This document shows positions 22,577 through 26,900 of a stretch of DNA of 54,382 nucleotides, one piece after another. The notes under the pieces are model-generated. The model searched no databases, was not told the origin of the DNA, and saw nothing but the letters and a program-made list of their open reading frames with translations. A program made the translations under genes and the position numbers. Within the stretch, counting starts at the first letter, position 1. Each line of letters starts with the position of its first letter. The DNA comes from Clostridia bacterium (lineage in GTDB: Bacteria > Bacillota > Clostridia > Christensenellales > Aristaeellaceae), in the NCBI GenBank assembly GCA_017448975.1, contig JAFSKN010000009.1, forward strand, positions 1-54,382, in the 5' to 3' direction.

Positions 22577-23353
22577 TCAGATGTATTCGCCTTCCGGCTC
22601 GGGCAGGTTCAGGAACTGGATGAATTCTTTGATGTGCGCGTCCCAGAATTCCCAGGAATGGGCGCCGGGGTCTTCGTGATAGGTGTAATCAAAGGGGTTG
22701 CCCGGCAGGGACTGGAAGAAATCCCGCGTCCGGTGGGCGCTGGCCAGCAGGAAATCGGCGTCCCCGCAGGCGTGATAAATGCGGGGGCAGGGCAGCCCCT
22801 TGTCTACGATCTCCCGGGCGCAGCCCAGGGGGTCCTTGTAGGTGCCCTGCGTGGGGCCGTCCCCGAAGGTGAGGGCATAGCGGGGGCCGTTGTGAAAGCT
22901 GCCTTCCTCGTTTACCGCCCCGGCGCTGATGCACCCGATGGCGGAATAACGTCCCGGATTGCTCAGCCCGATCATCATGCTGCCCGCGCCGCCCATGGAT
23001 AATCCGGCGATGAAATTGTCCTCCCGGCGGGTGGACAGGTTCAGCATTTTGGGCAGGGCTTCCGGCAGTTCCTTGCTGATGTAGGTATAGAATTTCTGGC
23101 CGTGGGCCATGTCGGTGTAGCTGGAATTGTGGGCGGAGGGCATGACGATGGCCAGGCCGTAGGGCGCGGCGTAGCGCACCACGGAGGTGAGGCGCAGCCA
23201 GTCCGAATGGCAGCCGTAGGCCCCGTGGAGCAGCCACAGCACCGGCAGCTTACGACCGGGGGCGTGATCCTTGCGCACGGGCAGCACGATGTCCAGGGTG
23301 ACGCACATGCCCAGGGCGGGGGAAAACATACGCATTTTCGTTAAAGCGGACAT
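22577..23353 (-). CDS. EstA/esterase-D-type carboxylesterase, second gene of the pair
   Basis: A 258-residue 'putative esterase' family alpha/beta-hydrolase, related to tributyrin esterase EstA and S-formylglutathione hydrolase. Nucleophile elbow GLSMGG (Ser about 122), acid Asp in HACGDADFL, and His in PGAHSWEFW near the C terminus. PVLWLLHGAYG-type oxyanion sequence is present at about residue 40. The start at 23353 follows AGGAGG; longer starts lack one. No signal peptide, so it is intracellular. It begins one base after the stop of the adjacent paralogue, so the two are co-translated. Short-chain acyl or sugar esters are plausible substrates. Confidence 0.88.
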   Translation of the reverse strand: MSALTKMRMFSPALGMCVTLDIVLPVRKDHAPGRKLPVLWLLHGAYGCHSDWLRLTSVVRYAAPYGLAIVMPSAHNSSYTDMAHGQKFYTYISKELPEALPKMLNLSTRREDNFIAGLSMGGAGSMMIGLSNPGRYSAIGCISAGAVNEEGSFHNGPRYALTFGDGPTQGTYKDPLGCAREIVDKGLPCPRIYHACGDADFLLASAHRTRDFFQSLPGNPFDYTYHEDPGAHSWEFWDAHIKEFIQFLNLPEPEGEYI

Positions 23354-23354
23354 C

Positions 23355-24146
23355 TTATTTTTCCTCCTTTCCCAGGGGCAGCCAGGAAAGCACGGTCTGA
23401 ATCTTTTCGTCCCAGTACTGCCAGGCGTGAGTGCCGGGGGATTCCTCATACGTCAGCGGCAGGCCCAAAGAAAGCATGTGATCCCTGAATTTCACGTTAT
23501 CGGGATAAAGCCCGTCCTCCGTGCCGCACCACAGATAAAAGTGTACCTCCGGCTTGCCCGCCTTGGCCAAATCCTCGGCGGCGGCGAAAAGATCGTCAAA
23601 GGAGCCGGGCAGCTTGCGCAGATCGCCGAAAACATCCCGCCAGAATTCCTTGGCGGCCAGGCTGCCGTTTCGGGCCAGCCTGACGATGTCCGCGCAGGAG
23701 GAAAGCCCCGCCGCGTAAGAAAAAGTGTCCGCCGCCCGCAGGCCGCATTTCAGCGCGCCGTAGCCGCCCATGGAAAGCCCGGCCACGAAGGTGTCCTCCC
23801 GCCGGGGGCTCATTTGGGGGAACAGGGAACGGCACAGGGCGGGCAGCTCGCTGGAGATAAAATCCCAGTACCGCTCGCCATAGGCCATGTTGGTATAAAA
23901 GCTCAAATCGGCGGCGGGCATCACCACCGCAAGGCCCTTGGCGCTGGCGTAGCGCTCGATGCTGGTGCGCCTAAGCCAGATGGTGTGATCATCGCTCATG
24001 CCGTGGAGCAGGTATAAGGTGGGGCAGCAGGCGCTTTCCTTGCTTTCCATACCGATCAGGCCGCTGGTGTTTTCTGGCAGGATCACCAGGAAATCCACTT
24101 CCCTTTCCAGCGTTTGGGAATGGGCCGTCAGCTCCAATAACGCCAT
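23355..24146 (-). CDS. EstA/esterase-D-type carboxylesterase, first gene of the pair
   Basis: A 263-residue paralogue of the gene downstream. LYLLHGMSDDHTIWLRRTSI forms the oxyanion/cap entry, FVAGLSMGGYGALKCGLRAA the nucleophile elbow (Ser about 129), WCGTEDGLYPDN supplies the acid, and SPGTHAWQYWDE the His. It starts with MALLELTAHSQTLEREVDFL, matching EstA-like tributyrin esterases. Cytoplasmic. It is transcribed from a TTGCGG-17-TATAAT promoter (24209-24181), divergent from the sugar isomerase-like gene. Together with the three secreted esterases it gives this window five ester hydrolases, plus a sixth hydrolase at 44750. Confidence 0.9.
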   Translation of the reverse strand: MALLELTAHSQTLEREVDFLVILPENTSGLIGMESKESACCPTLYLLHGMSDDHTIWLRRTSIERYASAKGLAVVMPAADLSFYTNMAYGERYWDFISSELPALCRSLFPQMSPRREDTFVAGLSMGGYGALKCGLRAADTFSYAAGLSSCADIVRLARNGSLAAKEFWRDVFGDLRKLPGSFDDLFAAAEDLAKAGKPEVHFYLWCGTEDGLYPDNVKFRDHMLSLGLPLTYEESPGTHAWQYWDEKIQTVLSWLPLGKEEK

Positions 24147-24180
24147 AACACATCGCTTCCTTTTCTTTCGTTGTTATTTT

Positions 24181-24209
24181 ATTATAACACCGCGTTTTCC
24201 CTGCCGCAA
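24181..24209 (-). promoter_or_regulatory. Promoter of the esterase pair
   Basis: On the minus strand TTGCGG (24209-24204), a 17-base spacer, then TATAAT (24186-24181), about 35 bases upstream of the esterase ATG. Confidence 0.65.
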
Positions 24210-24224
24210 CAAGGAAATTTGCAC

Positions 24225-24253
24225 ATGACAAAACGGCGCGGAAGGTGTATAAT
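24225..24253 (+). promoter_or_regulatory. Promoter of the sugar isomerase-like gene
   Basis: ATGACA (24225-24230), a 17-base spacer, then TATAAT (24248-24253). It diverges from the esterase promoter with about 16 bases between the two -35 elements, allowing shared regulation. Confidence 0.65.
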
Positions 24254-24302
24254 TCCGGTAAAGAGAAAGCGGCCAAGGCCGCAAAGAACGGAGGACGGCG
24301 AT

Positions 24303-25127
24303 ATGAAGCAGCTGCCGGTGGGGTATCAAATGTATTCGGCCCGGGAAGAAGCCCAAAAGGATCTGAAAGGTGTTTGCCGGGCGCTGAAAGCCATGGGTTA
24401 TGACGGCGTGGAGTTCGCGGGCTTTTACGGCCACAGCGCGGAGGAAATCAAGGCCATTTTGGCTGAAACGGGTTTGCAGGCCGTGTCCAACCACGTGCCC
24501 GCCAGTGCGTTTGAGCAGGATGTGTTCGGCCTGCTGGCCTTCCATCAGGCCATCGGGTGCAAATACATCGCCATTCCCTCCCTGGATCGGGAGCAGCGCC
24601 CCGGCGGGCCGCGCTTCGCCGAAACCCTGCGGAAAATGAACCGCTGGGGCCGCCTGTGCAAAGAAGCGGGCATTCAATTGCTGTACCACAACCACGATTT
24701 CGAGTTCGTTCCCGTGTCCGGCATGTACGGGCTGGATTTCCTGTTTGACGCGGTGGAACCGGACCTGGTGCAAACGGAAATCGACGTGTGCTGGGTGAAA
24801 TACGCGGGGGTCGATCCGGCGGAATACCTGCGCAAGTACGCGGGCCGGGCCCCCCTGGTGCATATGAAGGACTTTGTGGGCAAAAAGGGCGGCGGCACCC
24901 CCTACGCCCTCATCGGCCAGACCGAAACGGCGGACCAGGGCGTGGCCTTTGAATACCGCCCCCTGGGCCACGGCTGCCAGGACGTAAAGGCCGTGACGGA
25001 AGCTGCCATTGACGCCGGGGCGGAATGGCTGATCGTGGAGCAGGACGATTGGTACAATCGTTCGCCCATGGAGCAGGCCAAAGAAAGCATCGATACGCTG
25101 TATGCTGTAGGCGTAAAAACGCGCTGA
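24303..25127 (+). CDS. Sugar phosphate isomerase/epimerase (AP endonuclease 2-like TIM barrel)
   Basis: A 274-residue TIM-barrel protein of the xylose-isomerase-like superfamily. The start at ATG 24303 follows ACGGAGG; an upstream in-frame ATG runs through the promoter and is rejected. Landmarks include GYDGVEFAGFYGHSAEEIKA near the N terminus, LLYHNHDFEF (His/Asp metal site), QTEIDVCWV (Glu and Asp), VHMKDF (His) and FEYRPLGHG (Glu). These make the usual divalent-metal set for epimerising or isomerising keto-sugars or inositol derivatives. The substrate is unknown. It is transcribed alone and ends at a hairpin. Confidence 0.87.
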   Translation: MKQLPVGYQMYSAREEAQKDLKGVCRALKAMGYDGVEFAGFYGHSAEEIKAILAETGLQAVSNHVPASAFEQDVFGLLAFHQAIGCKYIAIPSLDREQRPGGPRFAETLRKMNRWGRLCKEAGIQLLYHNHDFEFVPVSGMYGLDFLFDAVEPDLVQTEIDVCWVKYAGVDPAEYLRKYAGRAPLVHMKDFVGKKGGGTPYALIGQTETADQGVAFEYRPLGHGCQDVKAVTEAAIDAGAEWLIVEQDDWYNRSPMEQAKESIDTLYAVGVKTR

Positions 25128-25146
25128 CAAATCGCTGGCAACTCAA

Positions 25147-25173
25147 AAGGGGCTGCTTCTGCAACAGCCCCTT
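25147..25173. terminator. Terminator-like hairpin between convergent genes
   Basis: AAGGGGCTG (25147-25155) and CAGCCCCTT (25165-25173) form a perfect 9-bp stem. It lies just after the sugar isomerase gene and just past the end of the small peptide frame on the other strand. Confidence 0.6.
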
Positions 25174-25194
25174 GATTGAATTTGGGTTGATGTT

Positions 25195-25431
25195 TTATGG
25201 ACGGAGGGGATTGGGGCGTCCGGAGGCTTCGGGGGGTTCGGTGATTTCGGTGGGCTCGGGTCTATTCAGCGGATTGGCCTGGCAATTAGCCAAGTGTATT
25301 CTGTACTGAACAGGTGAGTGAAATTCTGTTTTGCATCAAGGACAGAAATTGATTTCGTTCCCAGTTCCGCCGGTAACCTCTTCCAACTGATCGAGGTCCA
25401 GTTCCTTCTCCGTTTCCCGCTTGTCTTCCAT
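25195..25431 (-). CDS. GG-leader small peptide, UGA-interrupted, frame continuing into a zinc-finger pattern
   Basis: On the minus strand AAAAGGAGGA sits 7 bases before ATG 25431. The first 31 codons encode a charged leader ending LDLDQLEEVTGG, the double-glycine signal of class II bacteriocins and many RiPP precursors, then TGNEINFCP and a TGA at 25338-25336. The same frame continues open for 46 codons to TAA 25197-25195, reading CKTEFHSPVQYRIHLANC and then a Pro/Glu-rich tail. Read through, NFCP-x-CKTEF...H-LAN-C has exactly the spacing of a classical zinc finger: C-x2-C-x3-F-x5-Y-x2-H-x3-C. The stop occupies one of the two residues between the first cysteines. Either TGA replaces a Trp codon (TGG) in a decayed gene, or it is recoded, or only the 31-residue product is made. 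It lies 84 bases downstream of argH on the same strand. No transporter or maturation enzyme is adjacent. Confidence 0.55.
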
Positions 25432-25514
25432 GATCGATTCCTCCTTTTCTTATTTCATTTGTGTATACGCAACGGATCAGCCCGCTGGCAGTACTTTTTT
25501 GCGTACCGGTTGAG

Positions 25515-26900
25515 TTATTTGATTTTTTGCGCTTTCAGCCATTCCCGGCCCGCCTGTACGGCGGCAAGCACCCGTTCCGGGGCGGGGCCGCCGGTGAGGC
25601 TCCGGGCGGCGACGCAGGATTTTAAGGAAATGGCCTCATACACGTCCTGGTCAAAGGCGGGGGAGAAGGCGCGCAGTTCGTCCAAAGACAGGTCGTCCAG
25701 GGCGCAGCCCTTGTCCAGGCAGTGGGCCACCAGCCGCCCGGCCACGGCGTGGGCGTCCCGGAAGGGCACGCCGCGCTTCACCAGGTAATCGGCGCAGTCC
25801 GTGGCGTTGGCAAAGCCCGCGCTGGCGCTGTCGTGCATGTTCTTTAAGCGGAAAGTAGCGGTGCGCAGCATTTCGGTGAACACGTGCAGGCACTTGAGCC
25901 ACGTATCCCGGGCGTCGAAGTAGTTTTCCTTGTCCTCCTGCATGTCCTTGTTATAGGCCAGGGGCAGGCCCTTCATGACCGTGAGCAGGGCGGTCAGATC
26001 GCCGTAGACCCGGCCCGTTTTGCCCCGGATCAGCTCCGCCACGTCGGGGTTCTTTTTTTGCGGCATCATGGAAGATCCGGTGGCGAACCCGTCGTCTAAG
26101 GTCAGGAAGCCGAATTCCAAGCTGCTCCACAGCACCAGTTCCTCGCAGAACCGGGAAAGATGCAGCATGCCCACGGCGGCGGCGGACAGGTAATCCAGCA
26201 GGAAATCCCGGTCGCTCACCCCGTCCAAGCTGTTCTGGTACACACGTTCAAAGCCCAATTCCGAAGCGGTAAATTCCCGGTCCAGGGGATAGGTGGTGCC
26301 CGCCAGCGCGCCGCAGCCCAAGGGGCAGCTGTCGGCGGCTTTCTTGGCGTTCTGTACCCGGATCATATCCCGGCGGAACATTTCAAAATACGCCATCAAA
26401 TGGTGGCCCAGGGTGATGGGCTGGGCCCGCTGCAAATGGGTATAGCCGGGCATCACGTCCCCGGCGTGCTTTTCCGAAAGGTCCAGCAGCACTTCTTCTA
26501 AATCGGCAAGCATGCCCAAGGTATCGTCGCTGGTGTCCTTGGCGTACAGGTGCATGTCGGTGGCCACCTGATCGTTGCGGCTGCGGCCCGTATGCAGGCG
26601 CTTGCCCGCCTCGCCGATGCGTTCCGTTAAAATCTGCTCCACCAGCATGTGGATGTCTTCGCTTTCCGGCGGGAAAGCCACTTTGTCCGCCTGCATGTCC
26701 GCCAAAATGCCTTTCAAGCCCTCCTGAATGGCCGCTTCGTCCGAGCCGCTTATAATGCCCTGGCGGCACAGCATTTTGGCGTGGGCCATGCTGCCCTTGA
26801 TGTCCTGGGCAAAAAGCCGCTTGTCAAAGGAAATGGAGGAATGAAAATCGTCCACCATCTGATTGGTTTCCTTCTGGAACCGTCCGCCCCAAAGCTTCAT
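25515..26900 (-). CDS. argH: Argininosuccinate lyase
   Basis: A 461-residue fumarase/aspartase-superfamily enzyme that splits argininosuccinate into arginine and fumarate, the last step of arginine synthesis. MKLWGGRFQKETNQMVDDFH is the typical N terminus. HTGRSRNDQVATD (about 106-118), MPGYTHLQRAQPITLGHH (about 154-171) and the mobile-loop signature GSSMMPQKKNPD with its catalytic Ser (near residue 280) are all intact. Full length for the family. GAGGTG lies about 9 bases upstream. No argG or other arginine gene is adjacent. The small GG-leader peptide gene follows on the same strand and may be co-transcribed, as no strong terminator separates them. Confidence 0.97.
   Translation of the reverse strand: MKLWGGRFQKETNQMVDDFHSSISFDKRLFAQDIKGSMAHAKMLCRQGIISGSDEAAIQEGLKGILADMQADKVAFPPESEDIHMLVEQILTERIGEAGKRLHTGRSRNDQVATDMHLYAKDTSDDTLGMLADLEEVLLDLSEKHAGDVMPGYTHLQRAQPITLGHHLMAYFEMFRRDMIRVQNAKKAADSCPLGCGALAGTTYPLDREFTASELGFERVYQNSLDGVSDRDFLLDYLSAAAVGMLHLSRFCEELVLWSSLEFGFLTLDDGFATGSSMMPQKKNPDVAELIRGKTGRVYGDLTALLTVMKGLPLAYNKDMQEDKENYFDARDTWLKCLHVFTEMLRTATFRLKNMHDSASAGFANATDCADYLVKRGVPFRDAHAVAGRLVAHCLDKGCALDDLSLDELRAFSPAFDQDVYEAISLKSCVAARSLTGGPAPERVLAAVQAGREWLKAQKIK

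Follow-up and report, generated by a model that had tools for sequence, protein, structure and literature searches.

Double-glycine (GG) leaders are usually met in the export of bacteriocins and pheromones. In this work we analyzed a locus in which such a leader precedes a zinc-finger sequence interrupted by a UGA codon. The locus lies on a stretch of 54,382 nucleotides (the window), which is the entire contig JAFSKN010000009.1 of an 80-contig, 85%-complete metagenome-assembled genome (MAG) of a Clostridia bacterium. The explanation we favor, with a probability of about 0.7, is a nonsense-disrupted accessory gene for a GG-leader C2HC zinc-finger peptide, cut to 31 residues by the UGA; in its intact form the peptide was probably exported at one time, through an unlinked transporter of the C39-peptidase type. 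As given in PMC6959990, the C39-peptidase leader consensus is L(-12)xxxE(-8)L(-7)xxxxG(-2)G(-1). The window leader agrees at L(-12), L(-7), V(-4) and G(-2)G(-1), with Q replacing E at -8, and judged by its sequence it fits this consensus for GG-leader substrates of C39-peptidase exporters.

A first-pass annotation of the window had described a strong ribosome site and an ATG, a GG leader, a UGA within CP-x-C, 46 further open codons and a finger-like spacing of Cys and His. All of these are confirmed, on the minus strand (Table 1): the 78-codon frame consists of 31 sense codons (MEDKRETEKELDLDQLEEVTGGTGNEINFCP), TGA, 46 sense codons (CKTEFHSPVQYRIHLANCQANPLNRPEPTEITEPPEASGRPNPLRP) and TAA, while the translated plus strand of 25195-25431 is without such a peptide. 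Past the leader the spacing is C-x2-C-x3-F-x8-H-x3-C, with the first Cys pair spanning the UGA. When the UGA is taken as Trp, the AlphaFold2 model is a predicted beta-beta-alpha fold; provided that an amino acid is placed at the UGA, ligand spacing and predicted fold together are those of a C2H2/C2HC zinc finger. Profile scores for the window finger stay under their cut-offs (PF13894, 14.1 bits, cut-off 27; PF00096, 12.7 bits, cut-off 25.2). Of the bacteriocin models, PF10439 (Bacteriocin_IIc) gives no match to the window peptide at E <= 10, and TIGR03949 reaches 13.4 bits where 21.5 are needed.

Evidence for a once-intact gene comes from a homologue in genome G005 (contig G005:C56), one of the 28 other genomes of the genus and the only one of them with such a gene. 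It has a GTG start, a GG leader, the sequence CPWCKQFFPVANGTFHKHLLNC, a short proline-bearing tail and a UGA stop, and it carries CPWC, that is, Trp at the site of the window UGA, the residue which the first-pass annotation had thought would fit there. The gene upstream is one which we take to be nrdR-like. The window read-through matches this homologue at E 2e-9 (a single comparison). For the post-stop stretch, the observed score against the G005 counterpart was matched by 187 of 20,000 shuffles; for the 22-residue finger part it was reached by 39/20000, and with Cys and His held in place by 510/20000. These shuffle figures are generous, since the pair was chosen through a read-through search. 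With the G005 homologue itself as query, zf-C2H2 is not matched at E <= 1. In the second of two genome-contig scans, G005 is the sole confirmed locus among 84 matched stretches. An order-wide profile search of 396 genomes added two weak matches beyond the genome itself: the match in G116 has a GG leader but another build, and the match in G339 reads as noise, as do most low-scoring genus and family matches when read in frame. Among the family-profile rows with internal stops, those read have no GG leader, and no relatives were found in phages (tblastn), viral contigs, PDB sequences or PADLOC.

The neighborhood was compared by blastn across 29 argH loci. The isomerase gene is retained in the fetched flank of two of them, in the sister genomes G025 and G010, whose flanks are 84-94% identical to the window; there only ~60 bases separate the two genes, vs 387 in the window, and the peptide gene is absent. 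The peptide gene, whether gained here or lost in the sisters, is probably an accessory gene and an orphan.

Table 1. Positions of the peptide gene, its parts and its surroundings in the window.
Feature	Position	Strand	Remark
Shine-Dalgarno AAGGAGG	25440..25446	-	8 bases 5' of the ATG; strong ribosome site
22-residue leader MEDKRETEKELDLDQLEEVTGG	25366..25431	-	starts at ATG 25431-25429
Nine sense codons past GG, TGNEINFCP	25339..25365	-	whole part past the predicted cleavage site if the UGA terminates
In-frame UGA within C-P-x-C	25336..25338	-	sense codon in the G005 homologue
46 open codons past the UGA	25198..25335	-	remainder of the finger, spaced C, F, H, C, then a proline-rich tail
Second stop TAA	25195..25197	-	
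Strong hairpin, terminator-like	25140..25182	-	starts 12 bases past the TAA; only a four-U run, inside the stem
Intergenic stretch of 387 bases	25128..25514		contains the peptide gene
Argininosuccinate lyase (argH)	25515..26900	-	flanking; same strand as the peptide gene
Xylose-isomerase-like TIM-barrel protein	24171..25127	+	flanking, convergent

If the gene is disrupted in the organism, translation in its own genome should end after TGNEINFCP, with no finger produced. It is possible instead that the organism has an intact gene; the UGA would then have arisen by an error in sequencing, binning or assembly, or would represent an allele carried by a minority of the population. The assembly, with its 80 contigs and 85% completeness, speaks for this explanation, as do the frame and finger spacing past the stop, which are otherwise undamaged. 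The sequence itself bears no mark of an error, and we consider the explanation unlikely. The undamaged frame and spacing are also the reason for calling the break fresh, as the first-pass annotation did; its view of the locus as a broken copy from an undescribed peptide family is supported in part, by the intact same-genus homologue with Trp and by other intact GG-leader C2H2 and ribbon peptides in the bacterial family, and the freshness is an inference.

The first-pass annotation had also offered recoding, by selenocysteine or otherwise, and this is not supported. No selA was found in the 29 genomes of the genus (of 14 named genomes, 4 gave a signal in the control, one above cut-off). The tRNA-Sec model RF01852 matches in all 29 genus genomes, in 10 of them above the gathering score; the best of six matches in the genome itself (46.3 bits, cut-off 47; G000:C60:59945-60031) is tRNA-Ser(tga), and the matches checked in four relatives are all tRNA-Ser. 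That this Rfam model scores tRNA-Ser(tga) near or above its gathering score is a trap for selenocysteine claims. Of 36 long frames picked mechanically from the window (a few of them perhaps from the wrong strand), 18 end in UGA, as do 9 of 12 rows of our GG-peptide table (8 of 11 distinct), the G005 homologue included; the start of one row, L136, is putative. RNA folding past the UGA is weak (z -1.98, 7/200 shuffles as good). Because selA was not found, and in view of the tRNA-Ser identity of the best tRNA-Sec-like match, the frequent use of UGA as a terminator and the weak fold, neither selenocysteine at the UGA nor an alternative code that assigns UGA to an amino acid is supported. Readthrough in any form (selenocysteine, tryptophan or leakage), with some full-length peptide made, could draw on the open frame past the UGA, the zinc ligands in place and the strong hairpin that follows the second stop and not the first. 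Against it there is, in addition to the above, a homologue that has Trp at the site and itself ends in UGA, and no UGA-bearing homologue was found; we regard readthrough as very unlikely.

The hairpin (-26.6 kcal/mol, z -3.86, equaled by 0/200 shuffles) bears on the extent of the gene. A consensus scanner listed no terminator at its position, and no promoter. The hairpin sits past the second stop and not the first and fits a transcription unit built for the 78-codon frame, which counts against another explanation, namely that the 31-codon frame is functional and that cleavage after GG frees the nine-residue TGNEINFCP as a small pheromone. The leader and ribosome site are intact, and known peptide pheromones likewise consist of a short core behind a GG leader. 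Given the downstream finger and the longer intact homologue, such a core is unlikely, and we regard this explanation as very unlikely.

Staying open for 46 codons is unremarkable alone (4804/20000 base shuffles). When all six frames of the window are read through their stops, the spacing C-x(2,4)-C-x3-hydrophobic-x8-H-x(3,5)-[HC] turns up a single time, behind the GG leader; 40 Markov-1 simulated windows contain on average 0.75 such spacings each, in 0/40 behind a GG leader. A chance open frame, in which leader and finger were never a gene, would suit these open codons and a composition that is not coding-like, but the combination of a ribosome site, a C39-type leader, the spacing of a finger and a homologue makes it extremely improbable.

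The reading as a disrupted gene implies the following path for an intact copy. The peptide would be translated with its leader, and the leader would be clipped after GG by a C39-peptidase ATP-binding cassette (ABC) exporter encoded elsewhere; the exporter seen in close relatives is NHLP-like and is accompanied by an HlyD-like partner. After exit in an unfolded state, the peptide may then form a small beta-beta-alpha domain round zinc outside the cell, which might act as a secreted bacteriocin-like or signalling peptide. C39 domains are present in 17 of the 29 genus genomes, 16 of them above 100 bits, with G006 at only 25.6. An HlyD-like gene adjoins the C39 gene in G005, G025 and G010, and next to it in G005 and G010 is a gene that we assume to be guaB-like. 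The G025 exporter fragment scores 748.6 bits with TIGR03796 (cut-off 853.3), and the HlyD-like partner 33.2 bits (cut-off 156.2), likewise on a fragment.

Other GG-leader peptides with zinc-type cargo are found in the family. A family-wide profile search of 308 genomes gave 29 with a match at E <= 0.1, and the matches include such peptides. G431 and G437 (identical loci, counted once) encode a GG leader followed by a C2H2 finger, CPIC-x12-H-x4-H, which scores above the cut-off of zf-met. GG-leader ribbons with two CxxC-type pairs are present in G285, G564 and G627, and a zinc-ribbon profile supplied a further one in G451. The leader pattern E-x-V-T-G-G added two orthologous ribbons, one in G025 and one in G005 (71% identical, dN/dS 0.33 over 66 codons). 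In the C-P-x-C pairs of the group, x is Ile, His, Arg, Tyr or Asn, and Trp in G005, the pairs being not all at an equivalent place. The leader pattern is not enriched, with 19 matches in 29 genomes vs 19 for the reversed control; seven of the 19, the window's own included, read as GG peptides. It was written after the window, G005 and G020 leaders were known and thus lends the G005 homologue no independent support. At E <= 0.01 the zinc-ribbon profile matches in 200 of 308 genomes, which is not a count of GG peptides: of 28 such loci read (L136-L163), only L136 and L140 have a GG leader, and most are presumably rubrerythrin-type proteins.

The same kind of leader also precedes other cargo. In G020 (L018:1474-1752, contig G020:C164) it is followed by an IF-1 domain (PF01176, 47.9 bits, cut-off 30.2), and in G465 and G460 by glycine-rich cargo that looks bacteriocin-like by eye. 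The IF-1 peptide is an unexpected export candidate, with a C39 domain gene ~14 kb off on the same contig. Three GG-leader peptides of ~97-102 residues (L107, L109 and L115 in G444, G616 and G437) have cargo SH3-like in look; the only one of the three scanned, L115, reaches 14.2 bits with SH3_3 (cut-off 27). L105:1468-1776 (G585:C52) encodes a 102-residue Cys-rich GG-leader peptide. An orphan GG-leader peptide at L068/L071 (G005:C7, G025:C121), the cargo of which starts CGEYKDDKEARKRG, differs at one of 83 residues between two species. Elsewhere in the window, the minus strand of 22577-24146 holds two adjacent putative esterase genes (PF00756), the listed frames of which overlap.

Several results weigh against a disrupted gene for an exported zinc finger. 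Codon-position GC past the stop (0.59, 0.52, 0.54) is without a coding signature. Only one clear homologue of the window peptide came from the 28 other genus genomes, and the two genome-contig scans (118 and 84 matched stretches) gave no second. The leader of that homologue departs from the C39 consensus, with Q at -12 and M at -7, and position -7 is S or A in the leaders of the G025/G005 ribbon pair, so relatives follow the consensus imperfectly. In the family, the G431/G437 profile matches are weak (E 0.055 and 0.089), and neither the window peptide (7037/20000 shuffles reach the score) nor the G005 homologue (7463/20000) has a cargo significantly similar to the G431 finger; we therefore speak of a common build only and do not claim common descent, and to this extent the support for the family membership suggested by the first-pass annotation is partial. 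As for export, the C39 part of the G025 exporter has no match in the window, nor in the flanks retrieved for such peptides (13 distinct ones). The 85%-complete MAG itself has no C39 match, an absence that reads neither way: the G005 exporter-locus DNA, its guaB-like part included, gives only short matches in this genome, in the ATPase part, and since the neighbor is missing as well the MAG probably lacks the region. Loss of the exporter in this genome was considered and dropped for the same reason.

What is new is the way these peptides are built, with zinc-finger or ribbon mini-domains behind a GG leader; searches of the PMC open-access library gave nothing that we recognized as a description of GG-leader zinc-finger peptides, and the main text of PMC13289728 contains neither 'zinc' nor 'Christensenell'. 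The finding of one leader type on zinc fingers, ribbons and even an IF-1 domain within one family suggests that this leader tags small folded domains for export in a general way. The peptides are candidate secreted zinc peptides of a class which current bacteriocin models score under cut-off, and the broken copy shows turnover of such accessory genes. A wider proposal, which we offer tentatively and consider somewhat doubtful, is that anaerobic gut Christensenellales secrete varied zinc-stabilised mini-domains (C2H2/C2HC fingers and ribbons) behind a common GG leader, encoded by scattered single-gene cassettes and served by unlinked C39 exporters, with zinc replacing disulfides in an oxygen-free habitat; the window would then hold a recently broken cassette.

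Among known systems, selenoproteins share an in-frame UGA beside Cys with the window peptide, whereas selA was not found in the genus, no tRNA-Sec was identified and the homologue has Trp. In NHLP-family export (TIGR03796, TIGR03794), the type to which the G025 exporter fragment is nearest, leaders have a Nif11 or nitrile-hydratase-like part; the window leader is short and without such a part, and its presumed exporter is unlinked. C2H2/C2HC fingers (PF00096, PF13894; UBZ-like C2HC) resemble the window peptide in the C-x2-C-x3-F-x8-H-x3-C spacing and the predicted beta-beta-alpha fold; it differs in being a single bacterial finger behind an export leader, in which the UGA must be a residue. 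From class II bacteriocins, which have a double-glycine leader and are exported by peptidase-containing ABC transporters (PCATs), it differs in its zinc-finger cargo in place of a GxxxG helix, in the lack of an adjoining exporter and in the nonsense codon, and it resembles them in L(-12), L(-7), the hydrophobic residue at -4 and GG, as well as in its small cargo and strong ribosome site.
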